A stretch of DNA of 13,318 nt from Desulfobacterales bacterium (lineage in GTDB: Bacteria > Desulfobacterota > Desulfobacteria > Desulfobacterales > C00003106), in NCBI GenBank assembly GCA_030613165.1, contig JAUWMN010000013.1, positions 1-13,318 of the forward strand, written 5' to 3'. Under the pieces are notes generated by a model, which made no database searches, had not been told where the DNA came from, and was given only the letters and a program-made list of their open reading frames with translations. This document shows, in pieces, positions 193-13,069 of this stretch; the first letter of the stretch is position 1; every line of letters starts with the position of its first letter. A program made the translations under genes and the position numbers.

Positions 193-570
193 CTAAGGTG
201 CGGATTTTGTCTTTTTTATCTCTAAAGATGAGATAGTACTTTTGGGGGTAAGAAGTTTTACTTTGCCGTTCAGCATTCCTCCTGCTTCTATTATTAAGGT
301 ATTACAAAATAGCGTGCCGGTAACATTGCCGGTATTTAATATTCTTAATCTCTTATGGGCAATGATGTTCCCTTCAAAGGTTCCGCCGATACTGATTTCG
401 TCAACCTTTACATCCGCGTACATATAACTGCCCTTGACTGTTAGGGCCCTTTCTCCGAGAAGGTCTCCCCGAAGGGTTCCTGCAACAATTATTTTCCCTT
501 TGAATTGCAGAGTACCTTCTATATTGAGGTCCTTATCGATAATCGATAGCTGTTCTCTTTTAAGTTTCAT
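193..570 (-). CDS. Bactofilin (polymer-forming cytoskeletal protein)
   Basis: The 125-residue product is almost entirely a bactofilin (DUF583) domain. It opens with IDKDLNIEGT and continues with short beta repeats rich in G and hydrophobic residues (GKIIVAGTLRGD, ISIGGTFEGNI, LIIEAGGMLNGKV), as expected for the right-handed beta-helix. The tail after residue 110 is basic (EIKKTKS). Bactofilins polymerise without nucleotide on the inner face of the membrane and position cell-wall enzymes; Helicobacter CcmA is needed for helical shape. The ATG is supported by AAGGA (583-579 on the minus strand), eight bases upstream and overlapping the stop codon of the preceding peptidase gene, so translation is probably coupled. 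It is the last gene of the four-gene operon with the two predicted peptidoglycan hydrolases. The family is certain; the role in shape is inferred from family and context. Confidence 0.95.
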   Translation of the reverse strand: MKLKREQLSIIDKDLNIEGTLQFKGKIIVAGTLRGDLLGERALTVKGSYMYADVKVDEISIGGTFEGNIIAHKRLRILNTGNVTGTLFCNTLIIEAGGMLNGKVKLLTPKSTISSLEIKKTKSAP

Positions 571-581
571 GAGAGCATTCC

Positions 582-2384
582 TTAAGATTTGAGATCAACG
601 TTTATCCATCCGAGCACTTTGCTTTCACGCTGTACTAATATCCTATACCGTAAAGGATTTTTGGAAGATGTTGCATGCGGAACCTTATCAGGGATAAGAA
701 ATGGTTCTCCTGTAATGCATTCAATAGCCTTTGAGCCATTAGGGTCTTTTATAAAGGTGTATACTCCTATATTATCCTCAATGTTGGTCTTGACATCCAC
801 AATCTTAATGATGTCACTAACCCCTATGGTCAGGGTTTCGCCCGGGAAGATGCATCGTTTCTCTTTTTGATTTAATTCTACAATGACATGATTTAACAAT
901 GGATCTTGTAGGTTGACAAAAAGCTTTCCTATTTCAGCATCTTGCAGGTAGACAATTACCTGATACCGCATGCCTTTCTTGTTCAAGGAATAGCGAGTCA
1001 TTAAGTCCTTGTCGGTATGGATAAGATAGCCTCGGTCTTCGCCGGTGTTATCCCTTTTGTTGCCCACAAACCCTTTGAAGTTGACGACAATATCAGTCGG
1101 TTTTTTTATATTGGTTTCCACATTTACTAATTCGAGGGTGTCACCCTTGACAATCGTGATACAATTCATGTTTCGCACAATTCGTTCTTTTCCGTTTATG
1201 TTAAGAATGAAATAGCTCACGGATTGAGTCGTAAAATCCGTTTCAAGCGGCGTATCTGAGTGATTGACTACAATGTCAATTTTCCCACAATGATAGTGAT
1301 CTTTGCGTACTACAGCCTGTGTCGATTCTGTAATGCGTAGATTTTTTCGATAGTCATTGACCGTTCCATAGTTGAAAATGTCGATACTTAGTCCCCGCTC
1401 GTAGTTTGCCTCTAAGTGAGATATATTTATGACATCTCCCTTGCGAATATGAAGTGTACGACGGTTTTCAACTACAATAGGGTTGTTGTTGTTGATGGCG
1501 ACCACAAGATACTTCAAAATAGGGGGGTCCAGATAGATTCCAGGATTTTCCGGAACAATATCAAAATGTTCCATAAAGGCATTAATAGCGAGGTTGTGAT
1601 GCTGTACCTTCATCGCCAAGGGGAGCGATTTGCTTGATTCAATACCAAACGCGGGAATTTTATGCTGGTATAAGGCGTAATAGGTAGCTGATCTACGCTG
1701 TTCCGAATGAACTGTGTCAGAATCGGCGGTTCGGTGATTGGCAAAGTGAAAAAAATGTTTTGGGTCTTTTATATACGAATTGATTTTGTCAACTACATGT
1801 TTGGCCATTTCACCCAGTTTGATAGTTGTTCCGGTTGCTTCGTCATGAAATGTTTCACAGTCGGCAATTATCGATTGCCCGTAACGTTTGGGGTTTCTAT
1901 TCGGTCCTTCCCACTTGTCAGAATAAAATCCGGAACCGTCGTGCAGATTTAAAAGACAGTCACTTTCAGCGATCAACTTCTTGAGAATAGAGACGATCTT
2001 TTTTTCAAAATTTATGCGGGAGTCATCCCCAAACTTGCGGTTCATGTCTTCGTTGATTTGCCTTCGATTCATGAGAATCGAAAGGAAATTGGCTCGTGGC
2101 ACAACAATCAAATTCCCTTTTTCCAGGGCAATGTCGGCATAAAGATCAGCAGAGAGAAAACCTCCGGGCTCGTTTCCTTGAATGCCTCCTATAAGGAGCA
2201 TGGTTTTGCCGGGCGTTTTTCCATGGCTTCGATAGATATGTAGTTCATAATCGGTTCCTTCGAAAAAAACGTCATGCGTCTTCTGACCCCATGTCACCAC
2301 CGGGAAAATAAAGGAACAGCACAATATCGACAGGAGTATAATTGTTGTCGATATGACTTGATATTTTTTTTCTATATTGGTCAT
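582..2384 (-). CDS. Secreted M14/M99-family metallopeptidase, Csd4-like DL-carboxypeptidase
   Basis: 600 residues from the chosen ATG at 2384, one base after the stop of the upstream gene; the frame is open for 63 more codons, but those overlap that gene and lack a signal sequence. The chosen start gives a signal peptide (hydrophobic residues about 12-31). Residues about 35-280 form a carboxypeptidase domain. GGIQGNE places Q69 and E72 as zinc ligands, LLNLHDGSG supplies H148, and FGIES supplies the catalytic E249. A Gln in place of the first zinc His is the hallmark of the M99 enzyme Csd4 of Helicobacter, which trims peptidoglycan tripeptides to dipeptides (Pgp1 in Campylobacter). The remaining 320 residues look like three successive beta-sandwich modules, longer than I recall for Csd4. 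No Shine-Dalgarno is seen, so expression is likely coupled to the upstream gene. The periplasmic carboxypeptidase role is inferred; the family is clear. Confidence 0.9.
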   Translation of the reverse strand: MTNIEKKYQVISTTIILLSILCCSFIFPVVTWGQKTHDVFFEGTDYELHIYRSHGKTPGKTMLLIGGIQGNEPGGFLSADLYADIALEKGNLIVVPRANFLSILMNRRQINEDMNRKFGDDSRINFEKKIVSILKKLIAESDCLLNLHDGSGFYSDKWEGPNRNPKRYGQSIIADCETFHDEATGTTIKLGEMAKHVVDKINSYIKDPKHFFHFANHRTADSDTVHSEQRRSATYYALYQHKIPAFGIESSKSLPLAMKVQHHNLAINAFMEHFDIVPENPGIYLDPPILKYLVVAINNNNPIVVENRRTLHIRKGDVINISHLEANYERGLSIDIFNYGTVNDYRKNLRITESTQAVVRKDHYHCGKIDIVVNHSDTPLETDFTTQSVSYFILNINGKERIVRNMNCITIVKGDTLELVNVETNIKKPTDIVVNFKGFVGNKRDNTGEDRGYLIHTDKDLMTRYSLNKKGMRYQVIVYLQDAEIGKLFVNLQDPLLNHVIVELNQKEKRCIFPGETLTIGVSDIIKIVDVKTNIEDNIGVYTFIKDPNGSKAIECITGEPFLIPDKVPHATSSKNPLRYRILVQRESKVLGWINVDLKS

Positions 2385-2385
2385 T

Positions 2386-3294
2386 TTAGTCTGATGTTTC
2401 AGCCTGGTGTGGTTCTTGAGCCTGTTGTGGCACTTGAATTGGTATAGAAATGTCAGTCTGTACTGGTTTGTTTTCCTCTTGAGATGTATCCACTTTTGGT
2501 TTCGGCTTCGGCTTCGGGTAGTCAAACACCTTTTCCACGATGAGTTCCCCGGAATAGGAATAAACCAGCACAACCGCTTCTTCCCAGTAATCTATTGATT
2601 CGGTATCCTTGATATAGCCCTTGACGGTTTTAAAACGAGCAATTGAAAATAACTGGCCTCTTTTAAAATTTTTTGGTTTTCCCTCATACAAGGCCCTTTT
2701 CGGAGATATACGCCAGGATGTCGGATCCCCTTTGTCAGGTTTGATCAATACAAACGTATAACCTGACGCCGCCTTTTTTCGTGGCTGCTTGTTTTTTAGA
2801 AAAAACTCATATCTCACCCGATTGGTGTTAGGGTCTTTACGCAGCTTGAAATTTTCCACAACTATCTTAATTGGTGGAACTTTTTGGACAGTAGGAGGTG
2901 TGGCTTGGGCAAGGGGGGCGGTCTGCTTAGCCAACGCGGGTTTCAACGGTTTGAGTTCCGGTTTTTTTGGTTCTATTTTAGATGGTCTGGAACTCTTCTG
3001 TTTAGGATCGAGGTCTTCCCGCACAATAAGAAGTTGGGCCACAAGATTCTCTTTTTCTTCGGTTTCACTGGTTAGCTCTGCCTTAACGGCTTCAAGAGAA
3101 GATTGTAACTGTAAGTTTTCGACCTTAATGGCGGCATAGACTATGAGCACGGCAATAGCGCAAAGAAAAGAGATTCCAAGAAAGCTCCCTATCATAATAA
3201 GGGAATTCTTTGATAGTTTAATGGATGCAATATTCCCCGACTCTCCCACGCAGAGTATCGTCCACTGTTTTCCTTTTTTCAAGATCCCTCCCAT
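2386..3294 (-). CDS. Single-pass membrane protein with coiled coil, Pro/Lys linker and C-terminal beta-rich domain; function unknown
   Basis: I do not recognise a named family. With the ATG at 3294 the product has 302 residues: a short basic cytoplasmic N-terminus containing WTILCVGESGNIASIKLSK (residues 11-29), a transmembrane helix at 33-56, a charged coiled-coil stretch at 57-97, a Pro/Lys/Ala linker at 98-141, a beta-rich domain at about 142-258 and a PKPKPKPK-containing tail. The N-terminus resembles the short cytoplasmic strand pair and membrane anchor found before M23 peptidase domains of the Csd1/MepM type, but no peptidase domain follows. The start overlaps the end of the YkuD gene. 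A GTG at 3315 and a TTG just downstream, with GGGAGG before it, are alternative starts. It lies between two predicted periplasmic peptidoglycan hydrolases and upstream of bactofilin, so a scaffold joining the cytoskeleton to the enzymes is a reasonable guess only. Confidence 0.85.
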   Translation of the reverse strand: MGGILKKGKQWTILCVGESGNIASIKLSKNSLIMIGSFLGISFLCAIAVLIVYAAIKVENLQLQSSLEAVKAELTSETEEKENLVAQLLIVREDLDPKQKSSRPSKIEPKKPELKPLKPALAKQTAPLAQATPPTVQKVPPIKIVVENFKLRKDPNTNRVRYEFFLKNKQPRKKAASGYTFVLIKPDKGDPTSWRISPKRALYEGKPKNFKRGQLFSIARFKTVKGYIKDTESIDYWEEAVVLVYSYSGELIVEKVFDYPKPKPKPKVDTSQEENKPVQTDISIPIQVPQQAQEPHQAETSD

Positions 3295-4667
3295 GTCTCG
3301 CGATAGATTTCCCACTCTTTGCCCATACGTTTTAAGAAAAGCCTTTTTATGCCAACAGCTTTATATCCATCAGACAAATCGCTCTTAGAAGCGCTATAGG
3401 TTTGTCGGAAAGCGACCACTCTTTTATCTCGCCTTTGCTTTATCTGAAGATCCTGAAAGGTTATAGTGATAGGGCCATATAAACTATTAAGATATCTTTT
3501 GTACCGTTTCCATGCGTTTCTATTCATCTTCCCAGATCTAAAATCGGATGCATAATACGAGATATATTTTTCCAGATCCTTTTCCGACCACGCCTTAATC
3601 CATCCTTTTATGACTTCGGTGATCGCACGGTTTTCGTCACGGATCTGATCAAGTTTTGTAAGGGCGGCAAGTCGCTGATCTGCAAGCTTCTCTTTTGTTG
3701 GTGATTGCCACGTTTCGCCAATTATTTTCCAGTGGTTATCATTTTTAGTCAAATAAAGCTTTTTTGTTCCTGCTATCATAGGATTGCCGGGAAATGTAAC
3801 TACTTCATCAAACAGGGCTATTACTGTATCGCCCTGTCTAAACAAAAATACATCTTTTATGTTTAGATCAAAGTCAGTTATATCGTCCTTCCATTTTTTG
3901 TGCAGGAGTTCCCAAGTGTGCCACAAAGGAGCGTTGACGGTTGCTTCATCTTTATAGCAGGCTAAATACAGACCCTGATTTTTCTGTTCGAATGCATGTT
4001 TCCACTCGTTCAAGAATGTCAGCAGCCCCTCTTTTTCTTCCGATACTTGATCAATAGGAATCCAATCGATCTTATCCTCTATTATAATAGGAGTACGATT
4101 CAGCTTGATATATTTGGAGACCGCTCGGATGTCATTATTATTCATGACAACGCAGCCATTGGAATCACGAGGTTTTAATGGCTTATCAGTGCCATGAAGC
4201 CAAATACTGTTGCCATCGCGTTTTTCCAATGTGTCAAGAAAGTTCGGGTAATCGATCGGGAAAGCAAGACTCCCGTAAGTAGGAGAAAGCTCTCTCTTAC
4301 GGAATTTTTTCATTAAAAAGTAAGCGCCTTCCGGAGTTTTCCGGTCTCCTGATTGTTTTTTATCCCCCTTGTTCATTCCCGTAGAACAAGGATAGCTTCG
4401 TTCGACCCTTATGGTCCCGTCATAGGCTAAAATAAAGAGTTGCTGTGAGGCCTTTTCAACTATTATTGCATGGGTTGGGTTGTTCTCGGAACTTAGAGCA
4501 ATTACTGAATCTGGAATATATCCCAGGCTCAGTAAATGCTCAGGCGTATTCTCTTCAGGTTGTTTGAAAGCATGGGCTCCAGATACGAAAAAAGGAGCAA
4601 AGATGAACGTCAAACTCCAAAAAAACAGGATACTTAACGTATGTATGTGAAATTTCGATTGCTTCAT
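3279..4667 (-). CDS. Secreted YkuD-domain protein with two NTF2-like domains, Csd6/Pgp2-like L,D-carboxypeptidase candidate
   Basis: From the ATG at 4667 the product has 462 residues. It begins with a signal peptide (hydrophobic about 9-28, ending SGAHA at 33). A YkuD domain spans about 65-198 (ATHAIIVEK-like start, KTPEGAYFL, IWLHGT, then SNGCVVM) with H158 and the nucleophile C172. Two NTF2-like modules follow: about 212-320, ending WKIIGETWQSP, and about 346-460, ending WEIYRETWEGS. The YkuD plus NTF2 architecture is that of Helicobacter Csd6 and Campylobacter Pgp2, which remove the terminal D-Ala of tetrapeptides in the periplasm. The motif departs from classical SHGC-IR-[ML]: the His is Asn and the Arg is Val. 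A TTG at 4703 with AAGAGAA upstream is an alternative start, but it lengthens the signal peptide. It is the first gene of the operon. Upstream, TCGACA (4747-4742) with an 18-base spacer and GTTAAT is a weak possible promoter. Confidence 0.9.
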   Translation of the reverse strand: MKQSKFHIHTLSILFFWSLTFIFAPFFVSGAHAFKQPEENTPEHLLSLGYIPDSVIALSSENNPTHAIIVEKASQQLFILAYDGTIRVERSYPCSTGMNKGDKKQSGDRKTPEGAYFLMKKFRKRELSPTYGSLAFPIDYPNFLDTLEKRDGNSIWLHGTDKPLKPRDSNGCVVMNNNDIRAVSKYIKLNRTPIIIEDKIDWIPIDQVSEEKEGLLTFLNEWKHAFEQKNQGLYLACYKDEATVNAPLWHTWELLHKKWKDDITDFDLNIKDVFLFRQGDTVIALFDEVVTFPGNPMIAGTKKLYLTKNDNHWKIIGETWQSPTKEKLADQRLAALTKLDQIRDENRAITEVIKGWIKAWSEKDLEKYISYYASDFRSGKMNRNAWKRYKRYLNSLYGPITITFQDLQIKQRRDKRVVAFRQTYSASKSDLSDGYKAVGIKRLFLKRMGKEWEIYRETWEGS

Positions 4668-4797
4668 GGCACTATATTTAACACGAACCATAGGGGTTTG
4701 CAAATAATTCTCTTGGTATTAACATAAGTTACTTTTCGGTTTGTCGAAAAAAAATATTTAATAAATTCAACCCTTGAAGTCTTTTTTTAGGTAAATA

Positions 4798-4826
4798 TTG
4801 ACACAATTAAGTCTCTCCTGTAATAA
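4798..4826 (+). promoter_or_regulatory. Sigma-70-type promoter of rlmE, placing the start of transcription at or next to the start codon
   Basis: TTGACA (4798-4803) and TAATAA (4821-4826) are separated by exactly 17 bases. A start site about seven bases past the -10 box falls at 4833, the A of the rlmE ATG, and no Shine-Dalgarno precedes that codon. The surrounding 4704-4832 gap is AT-rich and must also hold the divergent promoter for the minus-strand cell-shape operon. Confidence 0.7.
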
Positions 4827-4832
4827 AAAAAC

Positions 4833-5423
4833 ATGAAATCGAACCAATGGGATGATTACTATGCACAAAAGGCCCGAAAAGAAGGTTACTTAGCCAGGTC
4901 GGTTTATAAACTTGAAGAGATTCAAAAGAAATGTTCTGTAGTAAAACGGGGTGGAAAGGTTCTTGATTTGGGGTGTTGTCCTGGTGCGTGGCTTCAATTC
5001 ACCTCCAAGGTGGTTGGTAAAACCGGACTGGTTGTAGGGGTAGATATTGCCCCGTTGAAACATTCAATGCCGAAGAACGTTCGGTTTATTCAAGCGGATG
5101 TTCTAAGCATGGATGAGGGTGTACTGGATGAATTTGCCAATGGATTTGATACGATATTAAGTGATATGGCACCCCAAACATCAGGCAACAAGTTTGTTGA
5201 CACACAGCGGTCATTGCGTCTCTGCGAAGCGGCGCTTAATCTTTCCGCCAGATATCTGAAACCAAAGGGCGCGTTTGTGTGCAAAGTGTTTCAGGGGGAT
5301 GGTTTTGAAGAATTTTTAGAGATATCAAAGAAAAGGTTTGAAAAGATAAAATTGCTCAGGCCCAAATGTACTCGTAAGGCGAGCAAGGAGATATATGTTA
5401 TTGGATTGAAGATTGTTGATTGA
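4833..5423 (+). CDS. rlmE: 23S rRNA 2'-O-methyltransferase RlmE (FtsJ/RrmJ)
   Basis: The 196-residue product is close to the usual length of about 200. It shows RSVYKL (K26), the SAM-binding motif DLGCCPGAW (45-53), acidic D71 at the end of the next strand, LSDMAP (D111), CKVFQG (K151) and SKEIYVIG (E186). These give the K-D-K-E tetrad of RrmJ-type ribose methyltransferases, which methylate a uridine of the 23S rRNA A-loop late in 50S assembly. The core is complete. The start is the first ATG after the promoter and lacks a Shine-Dalgarno, so the mRNA may be leaderless. The last codons (GLKIVD-stop) are made of a GATTGAA-type heptamer repeat that continues past the stop. yebC follows 68 bases downstream and may be co-transcribed. 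Confidence 0.95.
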   Translation: MKSNQWDDYYAQKARKEGYLARSVYKLEEIQKKCSVVKRGGKVLDLGCCPGAWLQFTSKVVGKTGLVVGVDIAPLKHSMPKNVRFIQADVLSMDEGVLDEFANGFDTILSDMAPQTSGNKFVDTQRSLRLCEAALNLSARYLKPKGAFVCKVFQGDGFEEFLEISKKRFEKIKLLRPKCTRKASKEIYVIGLKIVD

Positions 5424-5475
5424 AGAGTGACGATTGAGCCGTCTTTCACAAATCTTCAATCGTCAATCGACAATG
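5404..5475 (+). repeat. Heptamer (GATTGAN) tandem repeat with an inverted partner at the 3' end of rlmE
   Basis: Five near-identical heptamers run head to tail at 5404-5438 (GATTGAA, GATTGTT, GATTGAA, GAGTGAC, GATTGAG). The opposite orientation follows at 5455-5475 (TTCAATC, GTCAATC, GACAATG). The arms can pair, for example 5412-5423 with 5463-5474 at 11 of 12 positions, so the transcript may form a hairpin between rlmE and yebC. The array includes the last codons and the stop of rlmE. It does not end in a U-tract, so a simple terminator is unlikely. Confidence 0.75.
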
Positions 5476-5491
5476 AATTTAGGGAGGTCGT

Positions 5492-6238
5492 ATGTCAGGT
5501 CATTCAAAATGGAGCACAATAAAATACAAGAAAGGGGCAGCTGACGCCAAACGAGGGAAGGTGTTTACCAAGCTGATCAAAGAAATTACTGTTGCTGCCA
5601 AAATGGGGGGAGGTGATCCGGACAGTAACCCGCGACTTCGGAGCGCTATCGCGGCCGCCAAAGCAGAAAACATGCCAAAAGAGAATATGGATAGGGCCAT
5701 CAAAAAGGGGACAGGAGAACTGGAGGGGGTTAATTATGAAGAGATCCTATATGAAGGATACGGCCCGGGCGGCGCCGCAGTCTTGGTCGAATCACTGACC
5801 GACAATAAGAACAGAACGGTAGCTGACATCCGCTTTATCTTTAGCAAGTCGGGCGGGAGTCTCGGGGAAAATGGATGTGTTGCCTGGATGTTCAAGGCAA
5901 AAGGGTTCATCGTGGTCGACAAAAAGGAAGTAGATGAAGACACACTGATGGAAGTGGCCCTTGATGCCGGCGCCGAGGACATTGCCGAGGATAATGGTAA
6001 CTTTGAGGTAACAACATCTCCTGCTGGATTTGAACAGGTCAAAAGCGCTCTCGATAAAAAGGGTATAAAATATGTGATGGCGGAAATCAGTATGATACCG
6101 GACAGCAATGTCAAACTCGAAGGAAAAGACGCGGAACAGATGCTACGTTTAATGGATGCCCTCGAAGACAATGATGATGTTCAGAAGGTATATTCGAATT
6201 TTGACATACCGGATGAGGTTATGGAAAGTATAGGATGA
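5492..6238 (+). CDS. yebC: YebC/PmpR (TACO1) family protein
   Basis: 248 residues, the usual length. The N-terminus [20 protein letters not shown] is the signature of the family. It is followed by [19 protein letters not shown], the central [14 protein letters not shown] motif (about 87-100), and NRTVADIR with GCVAWMF. Family members were described as transcriptional regulators; more recent work on bacterial YebC and mitochondrial TACO1 links them to translation of proline-rich or polyproline stretches. A strong AGGGAGGT (5481-5488) lies four bases before the ATG. The gene ends in an ATGA overlap with the next gene, so the two are translationally coupled. In many genomes yebC sits by ruvABC; here its partners are rlmE and a DUF4416 gene. 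Nothing is missing or odd in the protein. Confidence 0.96.
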
Positions 6239-6795
6239 GTACCCCACAAAAACCAAAACCTGCCAAACTAATTGTCGGCCTCTTCTTGAACGACAAGGTG
6301 ATTATTAGCAAAGTGACCGAATCCCTGGTGGCATATTGTGGCCAGCCTGACGCAATCAGCCCCTGGCTTTCTTTTCACCACACAGACTATTATACTCCGG
6401 AGATGGGACAGCCTCTGTTCAGGCGTTTGTTCGCGTTTGGTGATTTGATAGAACAGGAAAGCCTATCCGACATCAAGTTGTTCACCAATAAACTCGAGAG
6501 AGACTTTATGTCAAGAGGCAAGCGTCGTGTAAATATCGATCCAGGCTATCTCCTTGCGGAACGGTTTGTGTTGGCTACGGGGAAAAATTATACACATCGC
6601 ATATATTTAAGAGATGGAATTTATGCGGATTTGACATTGATTTATAATAAAGGAAGCTTCCACCCACTTGATTGGACGTATCCGGATTATACTGACGGAG
6701 AGATGCTTACCTTTTTGGAGGGTGTAAGGGGAAAATATTTGCGACAGATTTATCTCACCGCAAAGACGCAAAGAACGCAAAGAAAAATTGAATAA
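6235..6795 (+). CDS. DUF4416 family protein with a repeat-derived C-terminus
   Basis: The 186-residue product matches my memory of DUF4416, a family of unknown function common in Desulfobacterota and relatives. Recognisable stretches include [13 protein letters not shown] near the start, a [12 protein letters not shown] segment (about 47-58), [14 protein letters not shown] [19 protein letters not shown] (about 97-115), [15 protein letters not shown] and [10 protein letters not shown]. It starts inside yebC (ATGA overlap), so translation is coupled. The last 13 residues or so ([13 protein letters not shown]) are encoded by the left arm of the hairpin repeat at 6755-6896. The ancestral protein probably ended near YLRQIY and was extended by the repeat. 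No catalytic motif is evident and the function is unknown. Confidence 0.88.
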
Positions 6796-6896
6796 AGAGG
6801 AAGATAAATTTCTAAGGGAAATTATTTTTTGAAAAGGGAATTAAAAGAATTGTCAATAAGCTTTAAAACTTTGCGCCCTTTGCGTCTTTGCGGTGA
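6755..6896 (+). repeat. Hairpin (REP/MITE-like) element, copy 1, overlapping the end of the DUF4416 gene
   Basis: The arms 6755-6782 and 6869-6896 are inverted repeats of 28 bases. The outer 19 (TCACCGCAAAGACGCAAAG and its complement) match perfectly, and 7 of the inner 9 match. The core is itself a small direct repeat of GCAAAGA units. The loop is about 86 bases and AT-rich. A second copy in the same orientation lies at 7818-7923, so yicC sits between two copies. Confidence 0.85.
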
Positions 6897-6924
6897 ATTA
6901 TTGCTTGAGAAGGGAAAATAACGA

Positions 6925-7806
6925 ATGATCAAAAGCATGACCGCTTTTGGCAGAAGTGAAACAAAGTTAGATAATAGAGCGATTACAGTCGAAATACGTT
7001 CTCTGAACCATAGATATCGCGATATTGTTGTTAGGCTGCCAAGATATTTGATAGCGCTGGAAGATCGTATTAAAAAACTGATTGGAGCGCGAGTTTTTAG
7101 GGGGTCCATTGAACTAACGGTTGATGTCAAACATGACACAGAGTCGAATATTGACCTGCGGCTGAATGTTCCTCTTGCCGAATCTTATTATTCTCTTTTG
7201 AAAAAATTGAAAGAGGCGCTTAAGGTTGAGGAACCCATTTCATTGGATACGATACTTGCCTACGAAGGCATTGTAAGCGCCGAAAATGTTGAAATAGATC
7301 CGGATCAATTCTGGGATGGACTTTCATTATGTATTGGGGAAGCCCTTGATACAGTGGAAGAGATGAAAAGGACGGAAGGAATCGCACTGTGTAAAGATTT
7401 GTTGGAGCGTATCAGCGGAATTGAAGAAAGATTGAATAAAATCAGAGAACAGTCATCTTCTCTGTCTTTGATGTATTATAATCGGTTAAAAGAACGTGTT
7501 GTAAAATTGGCGGCAGATGTGGTAAAGGTGGATCCGAACCGTTTGGCGCAGGAAGCAGCTTTTTTGGCGGATAAGAGCGATATTAGCGAAGAGATTGTTC
7601 GCCTTTCAAGCCACTTGCGGCAGTTTCGCTCAATAATAGACTCAGAGGAGCCTTCAGGACGACCGCTTAATTTTTTACTGCAAGAGATGAACAGGGAGTC
7701 AAATACGATCGGTTCAAAAATCGGTGACGCCGAGTTGTCCCAGGTCGTGGTTGGGATTAAAAGTGAATTGGAGAAGATAAGAGAGCAGGTGCAAAATGTG
7801 GAATAG
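6925..7806 (+). CDS. yicC: YicC/YloC family endoribonuclease
   Basis: 293 residues, the standard length. The N-terminus MIKSMTAFGRSE and EIRSLNHRYRDIVVRLPR are the classic YicC_N start. The C-terminus contains LNFLLQEMNRESNTIGSKI (about residues 249-267), the most conserved segment of the DUF1732 part, followed by a helix ending REQVQNVE. Members are hexameric RNases; E. coli YicC was reported to promote decay of the small RNA RyhB, and Bacillus YloC is a related endoribonuclease. AAGGGA about nine bases upstream supports the ATG. The order yicC, remA, gmk is conserved in many bacteria, including Bacillus (yloC-remA-gmk). Both flanks carry the hairpin repeat, so mRNA around this gene may be processed or stabilised separately. 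Confidence 0.95.
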   Translation: MIKSMTAFGRSETKLDNRAITVEIRSLNHRYRDIVVRLPRYLIALEDRIKKLIGARVFRGSIELTVDVKHDTESNIDLRLNVPLAESYYSLLKKLKEALKVEEPISLDTILAYEGIVSAENVEIDPDQFWDGLSLCIGEALDTVEEMKRTEGIALCKDLLERISGIEERLNKIREQSSSLSLMYYNRLKERVVKLAADVVKVDPNRLAQEAAFLADKSDISEEIVRLSSHLRQFRSIIDSEEPSGRPLNFLLQEMNRESNTIGSKIGDAELSQVVVGIKSELEKIREQVQNVE

Positions 7807-7817
7807 TTCTTATTGCC

Positions 7818-7923
7818 TCACCGCAAAGACGCAAAGAACGCAAAGGAAAACTTGATGAAAAATGAAACAGGAAGAATCTTTAATGGGCTTTTAAGCTTTG
7901 CGTTCTTTGCGTCTTTGCGGTGA
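7818..7923 (+). repeat. Hairpin (REP/MITE-like) element, copy 2, between yicC and remA
   Basis: The arms 7818-7845 and 7896-7923 are perfect 28-base inverted repeats with a 50-base loop. The arm sequence equals the left arm of copy 1 at all 28 positions. It begins 11 bases after the yicC stop and ends 34 bases before remA. In RNA it would form a long stem that does not end in a U-run. Confidence 0.9.
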
Positions 7924-7957
7924 ATATTAGCATTTTTTTACTTGTTGAGGGGGGAGC

Positions 7958-8233
7958 ATGGAATCAAAGTTGTTAAATATTGGTTTTGGCAATATGGTAG
8001 TTTCAAATCGTGTAGTGGCTATTGTAACACCTAGTTCGGCTCCGATGAAGCGATTAAAAGATGATGCCAAGGAAGGTGCGCGCCTGGTTGACGCAACCCA
8101 TGGACGCCGTACCCGTTCTATTATTATTACTGACAGCAATCATGTCATTTTGTCTGCTGTGCAGGCTGAGACTATTTCCCAGCGATTCATGGCAGGGTAT
8201 GATTTAAAAGAGGAGAAGAATAAAATAGAATAA
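7958..8233 (+). CDS. remA: RemA family protein (DUF370)
   Basis: The 91-residue product is a complete DUF370/RemA protein. It starts [22 protein letters not shown], then has [40 protein letters not shown] and a charged tail (KEEKNKIE). In Bacillus subtilis RemA (YlzA) is a ring-forming DNA-binding activator of biofilm matrix and osmoprotection genes; in Gram-negative genomes the role is unproven. A strong GAGGGGGGAG precedes the ATG by a few bases. The TAA stop abuts the ATG of gmk with no spacer, so the two are translationally coupled, as in the conserved yicC-remA-gmk cluster. Family certain; regulatory role here inferred. Confidence 0.93.
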
Positions 8234-8800
8234 ATGAGCAGGCAAGGACATCTTTTTATTGTTTCCGCGCCTTCAGGGGCAGGAAAGACCACCCTTTGTA
8301 ACGCGGTCTTAAAGGCGTTGCCTGGTCTTGAATATTCTGTTTCATACACCACCCGTTCTCCCAGAAAGGGGGAACAAGAAGGGGTGGACTATCATTTTAT
8401 TATCCAAGATATATTTTGTGAGAGAATAGAAAGCAATGATTGGGCGGAATGGGCGGAAGTCCATGGTAATTTCTATGGCACTTCCGCAAAAAAATTGGAA
8501 AAAACGCTTAATAGCGGAAAAGACGTATTGTTGGATATCGACACTCAGGGCGCCAAGAAACTCCGGAGCAGGTACCCCGATGCAACCTCGATTTTTATTA
8601 TGCCTCCTTCTTTTGAAGCGCTGAAAGAACGACTTGCAAAACGAGGCACTGACTCTGCCGAGTCTATCGCGCGTCGTCTTGAAGATGCAAAAAAAGAAAT
8701 GAGAGAAGCAGCCTCTTATGATGTCGTAATTACCAACGGTGACTTAAGTGTCGCTATTGCAGAACTGAAACAAGTTATAGCAGAGATCCGTGCGGCATAA
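8234..8800 (+). CDS. gmk: Guanylate kinase
   Basis: 188 residues, at the short end of the family's usual 185-210. It phosphorylates GMP to GDP with ATP in the cytoplasm. Visible motifs are the P-loop APSGAGKT (12-19), the GMP-binding YTTRSPRKGEQEGVDYHF (38-55), the lid-side WAEVHGNFYGT (73-83), DIDTQGAKKLR (101-111) and RRLEDAKKEM (147-156). All expected catalytic features are present. The start codon directly follows the remA stop; no independent Shine-Dalgarno is needed or clearly seen, though AGAGGAGAAG lies inside the end of remA. In many genomes rpoZ follows gmk, but here a 279-base gap and then the chemotaxis operon follow. Confidence 0.97.
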   Translation: MSRQGHLFIVSAPSGAGKTTLCNAVLKALPGLEYSVSYTTRSPRKGEQEGVDYHFIIQDIFCERIESNDWAEWAEVHGNFYGTSAKKLEKTLNSGKDVLLDIDTQGAKKLRSRYPDATSIFIMPPSFEALKERLAKRGTDSAESIARRLEDAKKEMREAASYDVVITNGDLSVAIAELKQVIAEIRAA

Positions 8801-9079: not shown

Positions 9080-9379
9080 ATGGATAATATTGTGACAGAC
9101 CAACAAAATGGAAACCAGATTTTAAAACTTAGGGGGGTACTCTCCATTTCAGAGGCAGGCGAGATAAGGGATGCCCTGATAAAGGAGATCAGCGAGAACG
9201 AGCATCCTGAAATCGATCTTGGTGAGGTTGAAGAAATAGACGCCGGAATACTTCAACTTTTGTGTTCAGCGATAAAATCAGCTGAAAGCGAAGGTAAGGA
9301 ACTTTACTGGTCGAATATATCTGAGGCATGTATTGAAGCCGCCCAGTCTGCTGCAATGTTCAAGGATAAATGGTTTTAG
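9080..9379 (+). CDS. STAS-domain protein of the chemotaxis operon
   Basis: The 99-residue product is a single STAS domain. It has a beta strand (QILKLRGVLSISEAGEIRDAL), then DLGEVEEIDAGILQLLCSAIKSAES (about 47-70), then a last strand and helix. At the site where SpoIIAA-type proteins carry D-[ST]-[SA]-G, this protein reads D54-A55-G56, so the usual phosphorylated Ser/Thr is absent. Similar stand-alone STAS proteins open che clusters in many Desulfobacterota and Bacteroidota; their role is unsettled. AAAGGAG about nine bases upstream supports the ATG. It is the first gene after the sigma-28-type promoter, and cheY follows 48 bases later. Binding to CheA or a receptor array, rather than anti-anti-sigma activity, is my guess from context. 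Confidence 0.85.
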   Translation: MDNIVTDQQNGNQILKLRGVLSISEAGEIRDALIKEISENEHPEIDLGEVEEIDAGILQLLCSAIKSAESEGKELYWSNISEACIEAAQSAAMFKDKWF

Positions 9380-9387
9380 TACGAGCC

Positions 9388-9408
9388 ACGGACAACGGTC
9401 AACGGACA
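9388..9408 (+). repeat. Short heptamer repeat (ACGGACA/ACGGTCA) between the STAS gene and cheY
   Basis: Three adjacent heptamers, ACGGACA, ACGGTCA and ACGGACA, fill 9388-9408 in the 48-base gap. It is a 7-bp array of different sequence from the one after rlmE but of the same period. Confidence 0.6.
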
Positions 9409-9427
9409 TTTCCAAAGGGAACAGATC

Positions 9428-9793
9428 ATGGCAAAAACGATCATGACGGTTGACGACTCTACAAGTATCAGGGAGATGTTAATTTGTACGCTAAAACAGG
9501 CGGGTTATAATGTAATAGAGGCGGTAGACGGCAGGGACGCGCTGACAAAACTCAACGACGCAAAGATTCACATGGTTATAACGGACCTTAATATGCCAAA
9601 TGTCGACGGCATCGCATTGATAGAGGAGATTCGTGCGACACCCGCGTATAAATTCGTACCCATTATTATGCTTACCACTGAATCGCATCCGGAAAAGAAG
9701 GTACAGGGTAAACAGGCAGGGGCTACCGGTTGGATCGTTAAGCCTTTCGAACCCGATCAACTTCTTGCGGTAATAAAAAAAGTGATTGGTTAA
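9428..9793 (+). CDS. cheY: Chemotaxis response regulator CheY
   Basis: 121 residues, a lone receiver domain. The acidic pocket is D9-D10 (TVDDS), the phosphoacceptor is D53 in ITDLNMP, the switch Thr is in MLTTES (T83/T84), the aromatic position is W102 in GATGWIVKPF, and the lysine is K105. There is no output domain. Phosphorylated by CheA, such proteins bind the flagellar switch. AAAGGGA (9414-9420) lies seven bases before the ATG. The gene is followed by cheA in the same operon, so pairing with that kinase is likely. Trp instead of Tyr/Phe at the switch aromatic is seen in other CheY-like proteins and is not by itself disabling. Confidence 0.95.
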   Translation: MAKTIMTVDDSTSIREMLICTLKQAGYNVIEAVDGRDALTKLNDAKIHMVITDLNMPNVDGIALIEEIRATPAYKFVPIIMLTTESHPEKKVQGKQAGATGWIVKPFEPDQLLAVIKKVIG

Positions 9794-9802
9794 ACAAGAT
9801 GA

Positions 9803-9816
9803 TCTCGTAAAAAGTC
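9803..9816. repeat. 14-bp match to the end of the 11948-12132 element
   Basis: TCTCGTAAAAAGTC here is identical to 11955-11968, the inner part of the left terminal repeat of the element between cheA and cheR. It lies in the 46-base gap between cheY and cheA. It may be the remnant of an excised or decayed copy. Confidence 0.5.
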
Positions 9817-9827
9817 TTGAGTTTAAT

Positions 9828-9834
9828 AAAGGAG
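9828..9834 (+). promoter_or_regulatory. Ribosome binding site that fixes the start of cheA
   Basis: AAAGGAG lies five bases before the ATG at 9840. The frame is open upstream to a TTG at 9786, but those 18 codons run through the repeat remnant and have no Shine-Dalgarno, so the ATG is the true start. Confidence 0.8.
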
Positions 9835-9839
9835 ATATC

Positions 9840-11942
9840 ATGGACGCAAGCGATAAATTTGCTCAGACATATCTTGAAGAGGCCGGAGAGCTGCTGGCGG
9901 AATTGGAGACAGCAGTGCTTGATCTCGAAGACGATATGGAAAATCCAGAGTTGGTAAACTGTATTTTTCGGGCCATGCATACTATAAAAGGCTCCGGAGC
10001 TATGTTCGGTTTTGATGAGATAGCAGATTTTGCGCATTATGTAGAAACCTTTCTTGATAAAATTCGAGAGGGAGAACTTGCTGTAAGCAAGGAAATAATT
10101 GATCTAATACTGGTTTCCCGGGATGAAATCAACCGCATGTTGAATGCCCTCAATAATGTAGAGACCGATGAGCAGGACAGGCGGGATGAGATTATAAAAT
10201 CCTTTGCTCAGTTTGCTGATGGCCATAGCTCAGGTCTCGCAGAAGAGTCAGAAGAGCCGGCTACTCCATCCGATTCACCGCCACAAAGAAGCACGAAACA
10301 GCAGAAGGTGTATCGCATACGTTTCAAAGCCGGGCCGGATCTGTTCCTGCACGGTATAAATCCGTTGGGATTGATTGCGGAATTATCGGAATTGGGAGAA
10401 CTGCAAGCACACTTTTTACCGGAGTATATACCTCACCTGTCTGATATTGATCCTGAGAAGTGCTATTTAGCCTGGGATATGGTTTTGAATACCGATGTTG
10501 AAGAGAACGCTATCCAGGATGTCTTTATCTTTGTTCTGGATAAAAGCGAGGTTCAGATTGTAAATATAAGTAGTGCGGCAGAAGAAGGAAGCGGTCTTCA
10601 ACCAAAGTTAGGAGAAATACTCATTAACCGCGGAGATGTTTCATCCAATCAGGTTAAGGATGCCTTAACTCGCCTCGGAGAGTTGCTGCAAGAATCCGGG
10701 GCTGTTTCGCGGGAAAAAATCAATTCCGCCCTGTCAGAACAGAACACCGCAAAAAAATACCGGGCTGTAAGCAAACCAACAAGCATCCGTGTTCCTGCTG
10801 AAAAACTTGATTTCTTAGTCAATATCGTTGGTGAGCTGGTAACCACCCAGGCCCAGTTGAGTCAGGCAGCCACCGGCGTCACGAGCGCTGAACTATTGTG
10901 CGCCGTAGAGGGGATTGAGCGTCTCAGCGAAGAATTGCGAGATTGTGTTCTGGGCATCCGGATGCTACCTATTAATACTCTTTTCAGTAAATTTAAGCGT
11001 ATGGTACGCGACCTGGCGTCGGACCTTGGAAAGGAGGTCGATTTTGTCACAGAGGGAGCTGAAACCGAGCTCGACAAAACGGTTATCGAACGGATCAATG
11101 ATCCGCTTGTCCACCTTATACGAAATTGTATTGATCATGGCATAGAGACTCCGGAGGAGAGGAAGAGAATGGGCAAACCGCCGAGGGGGACTGTAACACT
11201 GACGGCGACCCATGCTGAAGGTGAAGTCGTAATACGTATTCACGACGACGGCAACGGGTTGGATTCCGAGGCAATAGCGGCAAAAGCCTTCGAAAAAGGG
11301 CTCATAGAAAGTACTGACAACCTTTCTGAATCATATCTCTTTAAGCTTATCTTTGAGCCCGGCTTTTCTACCGCAAACAGCGTAACCGATGTATCCGGCC
11401 GCGGGGTAGGTATGGACGTCGTCAAGCGTGAGATCGATTCATTGCGAGGAGCTATCGATATTACCAGCGAACAAGGAAAAGGCACAGAGATTATCCTTCG
11501 TCTCCCCTTAACATTGGCGATTATCGATGGGCTGATCGTATCAGTAGCCAAGGAACAGTATGTCATGCCTCTGCACTGCGTAAAAGAATGTGTAGAGTTA
11601 ACTCGGGACGATGTAGAAAAGGCTCACGGAAAACGTATCATTGCGTTGAGAGACGAACTCGTACCGTATATCCGGTTGCGAGAGGAGTTCAGTATAAAAA
11701 GTGAAGAACACGATATCGAGCAGGTGGTTATTGTGGAAACAGAGGGCACCAGAGTCGGGGTAGTAATAGACGAAATCATCGGAGAAAAGCAAGCCGTGAT
11801 CAAATCGTTGGCCAAAGTATTCCACGGAGTTGAGGGGATATCCGGAGCCACTATAATGGGTGACGGAGCAGTGGCGTTGATCCTTGACGTGGCCCAACTG
11901 GTCCGTACCGCATGCAGGCGTGAGGAAGCAATGTACCATTAA
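9840..11942 (+). CDS. cheA: Chemotaxis histidine kinase CheA
   Basis: 700 residues from the ATG supported by AAAGGAG. An HPt (P1) domain spans about 1-125 with the phosphorylated H47 in FRAMHTIKGSGAMFGF. A domain at about 155-245 (YRIRFKAGPDLFLHGINPL... CYLAWDMVL) sits where P2 would be. A linker at 257-302 holds two LGE-L---G-V repeats. Dimerisation (P3) is about 315-380 (SIRVPAEKLDFLVNIVGELV). The ATPase (P4) has NDPLVHLIRNCIDHG (N-box, 420-434), DDGNGLD (469-475) and GRGVGMDVV (520-528). The CheW-like P5 domain is 560-690. It receives signals from receptors through CheW and phosphorylates CheY and CheB. All catalytic residues are present. A short gap with a repeat remnant separates it from cheY; the repeat element at 11948 follows. 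No cheW is visible nearby. Confidence 0.97.
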   Translation: MDASDKFAQTYLEEAGELLAELETAVLDLEDDMENPELVNCIFRAMHTIKGSGAMFGFDEIADFAHYVETFLDKIREGELAVSKEIIDLILVSRDEINRMLNALNNVETDEQDRRDEIIKSFAQFADGHSSGLAEESEEPATPSDSPPQRSTKQQKVYRIRFKAGPDLFLHGINPLGLIAELSELGELQAHFLPEYIPHLSDIDPEKCYLAWDMVLNTDVEENAIQDVFIFVLDKSEVQIVNISSAAEEGSGLQPKLGEILINRGDVSSNQVKDALTRLGELLQESGAVSREKINSALSEQNTAKKYRAVSKPTSIRVPAEKLDFLVNIVGELVTTQAQLSQAATGVTSAELLCAVEGIERLSEELRDCVLGIRMLPINTLFSKFKRMVRDLASDLGKEVDFVTEGAETELDKTVIERINDPLVHLIRNCIDHGIETPEERKRMGKPPRGTVTLTATHAEGEVVIRIHDDGNGLDSEAIAAKAFEKGLIESTDNLSESYLFKLIFEPGFSTANSVTDVSGRGVGMDVVKREIDSLRGAIDITSEQGKGTEIILRLPLTLAIIDGLIVSVAKEQYVMPLHCVKECVELTRDDVEKAHGKRIIALRDELVPYIRLREEFSIKSEEHDIEQVVIVETEGTRVGVVIDEIIGEKQAVIKSLAKVFHGVEGISGATIMGDGAVALILDVAQLVRTACRREEAMYH

Positions 11943-11947
11943 TAAAA

Positions 11948-12132
11948 TTGATAGTCTCGTAAAAAGTCGCCAAACACCCTATGCCGTCATTCCCGCGAAG
12001 CTTGTCCTCGACCCTGATCGGAGAGCGGGAATCCAGTAATATCAGATGGTTCTGGACTCCCGCCTTCGCGGGAGTGACAGAAAGCCTGTCCTCGACCCTG
12101 ATCGGGGATTGGACTTTTTACGACGCCATCAA
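11948..12132. mobile_element. MITE-like palindromic repeat element between cheA and cheR
   Basis: Terminal inverted repeats of 21 bases (11948-11968 and 12112-12132) match at 18 positions and share the core TCGTAAAAAGTC. The same 8 bases, AAAATTGA, occur at 11944-11951 and 12131-12138, which could be a target duplication, though they overlap the terminal repeats. Inside, 11986-12000 plus 12025-12036 pair with 12052-12078, giving a GC-rich stem (TCCCGCGAAG / CTTCGCGGGA). A block with TGTCCTCGACCCTGATCGG occurs twice (about 12003-12021 and 12087-12105); the first copy interrupts the left arm. There is no transposase, so a parent element elsewhere would be needed. I recall this type of repeat as common in Desulfobacterota. 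Confidence 0.8.
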
Positions 12133-12202
12133 AATTGAACATTTTGTAATTGTCTCAAAGGTTTTGATTACTTTCGAATGAAGAATAGGAATAGCATTAG
12201 AT

Positions 12203-13069
12203 ATGCATAGTAACACATCAATATTGATACCCGCTAATACCAAGATGTCTGACGCAGAGTTTAGACGATTTAGTGAATTTATACACAAAAGGGTTGGGAT
12301 CAATTTGCAACCAGCAAAAAAAACTATGCTGATTTCACGGCTTCTGAAGAGATTACGGAGTCTCAAAATACAAAGTTTTTCCGATTACTACGATTATCTT
12401 ATGAGCCCGAAGGGTCAGAAAAACGAAGTCATTCATATGATTGACGTAGTGAGCACCAACAAGACCGATTTTTTTCGAGAGTCCGCACACTTTGATTTTT
12501 TGACAAATAAAGCGCTTCCAGAGATTGTGTTAGAGGAGAAGAAGTGGAATATGAGGAAGATCAATGTATGGAGCGCCGGCTGCTCGTCAGGTGAAGAAGC
12601 ATATACATTAGCTGTCGTAATTGCAGACTTTTTAGAGTCCTATCCAAAGACAACGTTTTCGATTTTTGCCACTGATATTTCACAACAGATGTTAATAACC
12701 GCGGAGCAGGCTGTATATGCCCAAGACACTGTTAAGCATATCCCTTTACGCTATGTGCATAAATATTTTTTGCGGGGTGAGCGGAGCCAAACCGGTTTTT
12801 ATCGTATTGTGCCGAAATTGAGAAGTTGTGTACAAGTTAGATATTTTAACCTGATGGAAAGCTTCTCTCCAATACGGACTAAGATGGATTTTATCTTTTG
12901 TCGCAATGTAATGATCTATTTTAATCGGGATACACGGGAGACATTGGTAAATAAATTTTATAATCAATTAAACAATGGAGGATGCTTGTTTATCGGAAAT
13001 TCAGAAACCCTCAATGGATTGGACACCAAATTCAGACAGACAGGGCCTACTATCTATCGTAAGGATTAG
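12203..13069 (+). CDS. cheR: Chemotaxis protein methyltransferase CheR
   Basis: 288 residues, normal for the family. The N-terminal helical domain (about 16-80) begins MSDAEFRRFSEFIHKRVGI. The catalytic domain has STNKTDFFRE (84-93), the SAM-binding loop WSAGCSSGEEAYT (123-135), ATDIS with D158, and FIFCRNVMIYF (230-240). It transfers methyl groups from SAM to glutamates of chemoreceptors, opposed by CheB, whose gene follows. A weak AGGAA lies about 11 bases before the ATG at 12203. An internal ATG at 12245, just before the conserved part, is less favoured because it has no Shine-Dalgarno at all. No extra C-terminal domain (for example TPR) is present. The 134 bases before the start code for nothing else outside the repeat element. 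Confidence 0.95.
   Translation: MHSNTSILIPANTKMSDAEFRRFSEFIHKRVGINLQPAKKTMLISRLLKRLRSLKIQSFSDYYDYLMSPKGQKNEVIHMIDVVSTNKTDFFRESAHFDFLTNKALPEIVLEEKKWNMRKINVWSAGCSSGEEAYTLAVVIADFLESYPKTTFSIFATDISQQMLITAEQAVYAQDTVKHIPLRYVHKYFLRGERSQTGFYRIVPKLRSCVQVRYFNLMESFSPIRTKMDFIFCRNVMIYFNRDTRETLVNKFYNQLNNGGCLFIGNSETLNGLDTKFRQTGPTIYRKD

Follow-up and report, generated by a model that had tools for sequence, protein, structure and literature searches.

Campylobacter Pgp2 makes the tripeptide that Pgp1 then trims, which was established experimentally (excerpts of PMC3961634). According to the same excerpts, Pgp1 and Pgp2 alone did not make Escherichia coli helical, for which the authors blamed missing partners or an unsuited wall, and pgp1 lies next to pgp2 in Nautilia, Nitratiruptor, Persephonella and an organism whose name is given as Desulfococcus deovorans. 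Homologues of Pgp1/Csd4 have been reported in delta-proteobacteria, mostly curved or helical ones (parts of PMC3310789 and PMC3310797). In Bdellovibrio, curvature is made by Bd1075 (PMC8938487). The cytoplasmic beta-hairpin of LmdC recruits an M23 enzyme to bactofilin; in Rhodospirillum, bactofilin-LmdC targets the M23 peptidase to the inner curve, and bactofilin-M23 pairs were counted in 226 species (eLife 2024, PMC10945521, in excerpt). Csd5 is a single-pass protein with a short cytoplasmic N-terminus binding CcmA and a periplasmic beta domain (PMC9448923), and is described as restricted to Helicobacter pylori in the available part of PMC3310797. As of 2022, the mechanistic basis for targeting one lateral wall was not known (PMC8938487); bactofilin-LmdC has since supplied one for the M23 peptidase, and the confinement of periplasmic trimming enzymes to one cell face is largely an open question. 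The present analysis concerns a four-gene operon (193-4703, minus strand) on contig JAUWMN010000013.1 of a Desulfobacterales bacterium (GCA_030613165.1), encoding a YkuD-NTF2 protein, a coiled-coil membrane protein (CC), an M99 peptidase and a bactofilin. The window analysed is the entire 13,318-base contig (C117), which belongs to a draft genome of 1.77 Mb that is 67% complete; all evidence comes from sequence and structure models.

Similar to the Campylobacter jejuni Pgp2-Pgp1 and H. pylori Csd6-Csd4 pairs, the operon encodes a member of an LD-carboxypeptidase family followed by one of a DL-carboxypeptidase family, both with their active-site residues conserved. Unlike them, it brings the two together in a single operon with a dedicated bactofilin and a candidate membrane adaptor, and it has an extra C-terminal domain on M99 and an extra NTF2 domain on the YkuD protein. 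Bd1075 is the closest solved relative of YkuD-NTF2, in which the equivalents of its Y274 and W303 are kept, but it is monocistronic and has one NTF2 domain (PMC8938487). As in BacA-LmdC of Hyphomonas and Rhodospirillum, a bactofilin is encoded together with a bitopic protein of predicted hairpin, transmembrane (TM) helix and coiled coil; however, CC has an immunoglobulin-like (Ig-like) domain where LmdC has its M23 peptidase, and the operon encodes its hydrolases as separate proteins. Csd5 is an analogue of CC in layout, with no homology shown: the periplasmic SH3 domain of Csd5 is missing from CC, which has the Ig-like fold.

The operon is read here as a bactofilin-guided peptidoglycan-trimming module, with a probability of about 0.6. 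Bactofilin polymerises under the inner membrane, and the dedicated bactofilin would form a scaffold there. The cytoplasmic hairpin of CC would bind this scaffold, a contact that the analogy with LmdC slightly favours, while its predicted coiled coil and Ig-like domain would extend into the periplasm. The Ig-like domain would hold or position the YkuD-NTF2 LD-carboxypeptidase, because the same domain is fused to YkuD-NTF2 in three loci. YkuD-NTF2 would trim tetrapeptides to tripeptides, and M99 would remove meso-diaminopimelate (meso-DAP), leaving dipeptides; these LD- and DL-carboxypeptidase activities are very probable, since the catalytic residues do not vary and Pgp2 and Pgp1 provide a precedent. 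Cross-linkable stems would be lost only where the scaffold lies, and this local loss of cross-linking capacity might skew growth and thereby produce curvature or some other asymmetric form. Curvature itself is proposed tentatively as the outcome. A possibility that we put somewhat under even is that CC descends from LmdC or imitates it while lacking enzymatic activity; its LmdC-type hairpin would hook the dedicated bactofilin, and its Ig-like domain would hold the LD-carboxypeptidase. The operon would then be a complete and self-contained device for consecutive trimming on one side of the cell, supplying the localisation factors that Pgp1 and Pgp2 lacked in E. coli.

In this operon, both predicted carboxypeptidases have a dedicated bactofilin and a possible membrane-spanning connector as neighbours, so that four genes suffice to pose the question of confinement. 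If the reading is true, a scaffold-connector link would explain how trimming is restricted to a single site, and the bactofilin-hairpin principle would widen from peptidase-carrying proteins to a connector serving separate enzymes. An earlier sequence-only reading had described the operon as a Helicobacter-type module outside Campylobacterota. The families do occur outside that group, but the novelty is less than supposed, as delta-proteobacterial Pgp1/Csd4, Bd1075 and the Desulfococcus pgp1-pgp2 neighbours were already published. Its scheme of consecutive trimming from tetra- over tri- to dipeptide has the Campylobacter pair as a precedent, and the curved or helical host that it supposed is a tentative proposal. 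The four-gene operon, the dedicated bactofilin and a peptidase-less LmdC-like protein were not found in open-licence literature among the matches listed, and a prior description is possible.

Gene order and the dedicated bactofilin

The genes are transcribed in the order YkuD-NTF2 (3279-4703; 474 residues from TTG 4703 or 462 from ATG 4667), CC (2386-3315; a bitopic membrane protein of 309 residues with a GTG start and an alternative ATG at 3294), M99 (582-2384; 600 residues) and bactofilin (193-570; 125 residues). For the YkuD gene, ATG 4667 is the likelier start. The four same-direction genes described by the sequence-only reading at 193..4703 are real; the gaps are 1 base between CC and M99 and 11 bases between M99 and bactofilin. 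The YkuD start and the size of the YkuD/CC overlap, which is 37 bases (16 if CC starts at ATG 3294), had to be corrected.

Relatives were picked by M99 similarity, and the counts describe this M99 type rather than all M99 genes. A protein search of 194 genomes of the same order gave an M99 match in 53; as we read the table, 42 were operon-type (best match >270 bits) and 11 weaker (best 164 bits, with G054 and G153 at <30 bits). The surroundings were examined in 41 other operon-type genomes, in 9 of the 11 weaker ones and at weaker paralogues in the operon-type genomes G008 and G014. The 42 operon-type rows correspond to 41 genomes (G048 is in two pieces). All four genes were found in 32 of these rows, 30 of them in order with M99 as a single open frame; among the 32, L044 has the bactofilin upstream and L084 a split M99. 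Outside the 32, M99 and bactofilin share one frame in L049. At the weaker M99 loci (L073-L083), the other three operon genes were seen in 0 of 11 within the examined flanking DNA. These loci, from the same order, carry a distant M99 paralogue that is shorter, its frames being roughly 450-550 residues long.

From named genomes, the best 80 of at least 540 relatives were kept and pooled with the 42 rows. From the resulting 122 loci, four with an M99 frame below 600 bits (L084, L085, L086, L121) and 25 duplicates were removed, which left 93. Of these, 69 were flanked, with ≥2.6 kb on the upstream side of M99 and ≥450 bases on its downstream side. The sequence-only reading had proposed a dedicated system recognisable by conserved order in Desulfobacterota, and the order YkuD-CC-M99-bactofilin on the same strand was indeed kept in 52 of the 69 flanked distinct loci (the joined frame of L049 included). 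CC stood directly upstream of M99 in 62/69. The bactofilin was upstream in 5/69, two of which (L132 and L152) are without a free CC, and it was missing within 400 bases downstream in two (L127, L161). The operon lay downstream of ruvB in 49 and upstream of the L13-S9 ribosomal genes in 36 of the 93 loci (translations read by eye; several loci cut short). Named carriers among the best 80 of at least 540 include Desulfobacterales, Syntrophus-labelled and Desulfarculaceae genomes; the nearest by M99 is a Desulfobacterales draft genome (L088, 79% identical). Across the phylum, 62 of 297 sampled genomes gave an M99 match. In these bacteria of the sulfate-reducing type, the operon is more than a chance arrangement, and both it and the enzyme families are well supported.

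Partial arrangements were also met. In G053, which gave no M99 match in the phylum-sample search, a RuvB-like gene precedes the YkuD-NTF2 gene, and a bactofilin comes immediately after the latter without an intervening CC (L282). YkuD and CC are adjacent in G205 (L230), a genome without an M99 match in the same search.

The bactofilin named by the sequence-only reading is confirmed by its PF04519 domain (residues 9-104, E 1.8e-20, 73.4 bits against a cut-off of 27.9). It is a dedicated paralogue: all 38 operon bactofilins fall into a single clade (support 1.0), apart from 33 others drawn from the order's 30 highest-scoring bactofilin loci. No M23 genes were found beside the non-operon bactofilins of these 30 loci by motif search in 1.5-kb flanks. 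The second bactofilin of the host adjoins a RodA-like gene, lying between it and ATP synthase subunit-like genes (L176, 1414-1845; translations read).

The two predicted carboxypeptidases

The families of the two enzymes are assigned with high confidence. M99 (PF17033, E 8.3e-43) is a predicted periplasmic DL-carboxypeptidase of the Csd4/Pgp1 type. Its catalytic domain comprises residues 47-280 (1545..2246, minus strand as for all features of the operon), in which Q69, E72, H148, R108, R116 and E249 align with Csd4 Q46, E49, H128, R86, R94 and E222; the roles of the Csd4 residues are described in PMC4220969. These six residues (the metal motif QxxE...H, the catalytic Glu and two substrate Arg) are invariant in 40/40 sequences. 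Central and Ig-like domains common to Csd4 follow (residues 281-493; 906..1544), the alignment with Csd4 reaching residue 493, and the model fits Csd4 across three domains (peptidase, beta-barrel and Ig-like). An extra C-terminal beta domain (residues 494-600; 585..905; beta strands in the model) is missing in relatives of about 500 residues, matches ending near 500 in several genomes. The Gln-zinc M14/M99 peptidase of the sequence-only reading is recognised in the motif Q69xxE72...H148, and its comparison with Csd4 is borne out by the fit of the model and the invariant active-site residues.

YkuD-NTF2 is by sequence a predicted periplasmic LD-carboxypeptidase of the Bd1075/Csd6/Pgp2 kind, with Pfam matches to PF03734 (E 3e-21) and, in two stretches, to PF24125 Cds6_C (E 2.1e-20). 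In the catalytic domain (residues 79-208; 4080..4469), His170 (4194-4196), Gly171 and Cys184 (4152-4154) are invariant in 35/35 sequences; these active-site residues of Csd6, Pgp2 and Bd1075 support the assignment to Csd6 made earlier. The second position after the Cys (Cys+2) is Val in 18, Ala in 16 and Thr in 1 of the 35, and the Arg of transpeptidases never occurs there. The best solved relative is 7o21 (Bd1075, E 2.8e-38), followed by Csd6 (4.7e-19). The profile scores are 245 bits for Bd1075, 116 for Csd6, 107 and 104 for Pgp2, and 37 for the next YkuD chain, 8ikr; the protein is thus closer to Bd1075 than to Csd6.

The C-terminal NTF2-like domain (residues 361-469; 3297..3623) is the Cds6_C match. 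Tyr436 corresponds to Bd1075 Y274 and Trp471, just past the Pfam match, to W303, with equivalents in 35/35 and 30/35 sequences, respectively. W303 was described as conserved in Bdellovibrio homologues and not in other LD-carboxypeptidases (PMC8938487). The present count contradicts a conservation limited to Bdellovibrio, and this targeting tryptophan occurs well beyond that genus. An extra NTF2-like domain lies between the YkuD and C-terminal NTF2 domains (3654..4001; approximately residues 235-350, bounds by eye). It is absent from the deep-branching L132, L142, L152 and L159, in which profile positions of about 214-333 are skipped. In L132, L142 and L152, YkuD-NTF2 carries the CC Ig-like domain as a C-terminal fusion (86 to 95 bits). 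The fused frames are at 2964-4532, 3543-5267 and 4222-5856, respectively, with the bactofilin directly upstream.

The candidate connector

The membrane coiled-coil protein of the sequence-only reading is present, and its hairpin and Ig-like parts had gone unnoticed. The AlphaFold2 model of CC has a mean predicted local distance difference test score (pLDDT) of 81.6. It predicts a cytoplasmic beta-hairpin (residues 18-34, strands 18-23 and 29-34; 3214..3264), a single helix in which the TM segment runs into the coiled coil (residues 36-102; 3010..3210) and a periplasmic Ig-like domain (residues 149-267; 2515..2871), the beta-sandwich of which is placed at 151-265. The mean pLDDT is 67 for residues 11-20, 90 for 21-30 and 87 for 31-40. 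In the hairpin, G27 is invariant and W18 is kept in at least 90%; the consensus WTxLxVGDxGxxxS lies just ahead of the membrane helix. The modelled CC thus shares the hairpin, TM helix and coiled coil with LmdC but has no M23 peptidase domain, the place of which is apparently occupied by the Ig-like fold. The full table of the window's CC contained no Pfam family at the curated cut-off and no M23 domain, and no M23 was seen in 34 CC members among 25 of 79 families listed.

When CC was compared with the N-termini of LmdC-like M23 proteins, not with LmdC itself, the profile-profile probability was 93.8 and the score 38.4. Thirty shuffles of the hairpin columns gave scores of 22.7 to 28.5 and probabilities of 35 to 76. 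For 81 CC N-termini the probability reached 95.7; the control N-termini of M99 and YkuD yielded 1.6 and 3.0. A CC N-terminal profile (first 80 positions), searched at E 0.01 in 118 genomes from the phylum, matched 13 of them once each, namely seven CC proteins, five M23 peptidases and a permease (false). One of the five M23 genes is directly followed by a bactofilin (L235). By our reading, the N-terminal pattern is common to 30 LmdC-like M23 genes. In two genomes, LmdC-like M23 genes with the hairpin-type N-terminus stand beside a SecA-like gene (L233, L239).

Other identities of CC were considered. DUF6776 (PF20567) was rejected, as it matched 2 of 34 CC members with a best E of 0.021; among 148 phylum genomes, five had a weak match at E 0.01 that stayed below the cut-off, as against 0/14 control genomes. 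FtsL (NCBIfam, E 0.04, far below cut-off) was rejected as well. The best match of the CC profile among solved structures had an E of 0.15, and Foldseek with the CC model found no match at E 0.001.

Alternative readings and surroundings

Several observations weigh against a bactofilin-guided module. The YkuD gene is not beside M99 in 5/69 flanked loci (a relative of it is elsewhere in the four of these five genomes that were searched, full-length and close in two). CC is absent without a fused Ig domain in another count of 5/69; four of these loci have YkuD and M99 only, and one keeps a 48-residue frame matching the CC N-terminus. In L132 and L152, the Ig domain belongs to the YkuD protein and a free CC is lacking, and two incomplete drafts from a single genus yielded no match to CC. 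The M99-bactofilin frame of L049 would, if real, be topologically odd, a secreted enzyme being tied to a polymer that normally lies in the cytosol; it may be an assembly error. This uninterrupted frame of 728 residues (6232-8418) is on the same contig as L105, of the Olavius algarvensis Delta 4 endosymbiont. The N-terminal profile search was unclean, one match being a permease, and insensitive: LmdC-like M23 proteins occur in 82 of the 118 genomes (E 1e-40) while only five were matched, and the operon-type genomes G208, G209 and G226 were missed. The hairpin likeness spans about 25 columns plus the TM helix. The portion up to the hairpin alone has a probability of 5.9, the TM helix with the coiled coil 61 and the stretch past the TM helix 64; therefore, hairpin and membrane helix jointly carry the likeness to LmdC-like proteins, and neither does so alone. 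Finally, a bactofilin was present in the 1.5-kb flanks of only 1 of 30 LmdC-like M23 loci, and the hairpin therefore need not always mean bactofilin.

The alternative that survives best, a real though lesser possibility, accepts a bactofilin-guided module and assigns it to the pole, the division site or the width of oval cells rather than to curvature of the body. Bactofilins elsewhere serve stalk formation, chromosome segregation and motility, as part of the literature describes. The named carriers include Desulfobacula, Desulfotignum and Desulfobacterium, which we take to be genera with oval or rod-shaped members. Against this stand the vibrio shape of Desulfocarbo indianensis (L150), the sole carrier for which the shape was read from a description, and the closest solved relative of YkuD-NTF2, which makes curvature (PMC8938487). 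Csd4/Pgp1 homologues, too, were reported mainly in curved or helical species in the available parts of PMC3310789 and PMC3310797.

It is unlikely that the four genes are merely co-expressed in wall trimming or recycling with no physical coupling, the CC hairpin being a common membrane-proximal feature of anchored periplasmic proteins. The rarity of bactofilin beside M23 genes that share the N-terminal pattern would fit such a case, as would L060, L106, L117 and L118, which keep both enzymes while CC was not detected. However, a dedicated bactofilin paralogue travels with the enzymes, CC nearly always directly precedes M99 in the flanked loci, three loci have its Ig domain joined to the YkuD protein, and the YkuD gene adjoins bactofilin in G053 despite the missing M99 match. 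Quite improbable is the view that YkuD-NTF2 could be a DpaA-like amidase freeing protein from DAP, without a consecutive trimming pathway: a YkuD domain and a small Cys+2 residue are also found in DpaA (YafK)-type enzymes (PMC8938487), and the only NCBIfam YkuD-type matches are LdtF/DpaA and ElsL, both far under cut-off, but the profile bits favour Bd1075, Csd6 and Pgp2 over 8ikr, the Cds6_C NTF2 domain is present, the DpaA model reaches 25 bits against a cut-off of 365 (NCBIfam model; E. coli DpaA itself not compared), and the protein travels with a relative of tripeptide-cutting enzymes.

Outside the operon, an FtsJ-family gene starts divergently at 4833. At 7958-8800, YicC is followed by a RemA-like gene directly ahead of guanylate kinase, which is an ordinary arrangement. 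A cluster of STAS, response regulator, CheA and CheR genes (9080-13069, Pfam) suggests a chemotactic host. At the left end, positions 1-262 of the window overlap contig C239 of the same genome (95% at 1-144, 84% at 180-262); the gene facing that of the bactofilin is therefore probably methyltransferase-like.

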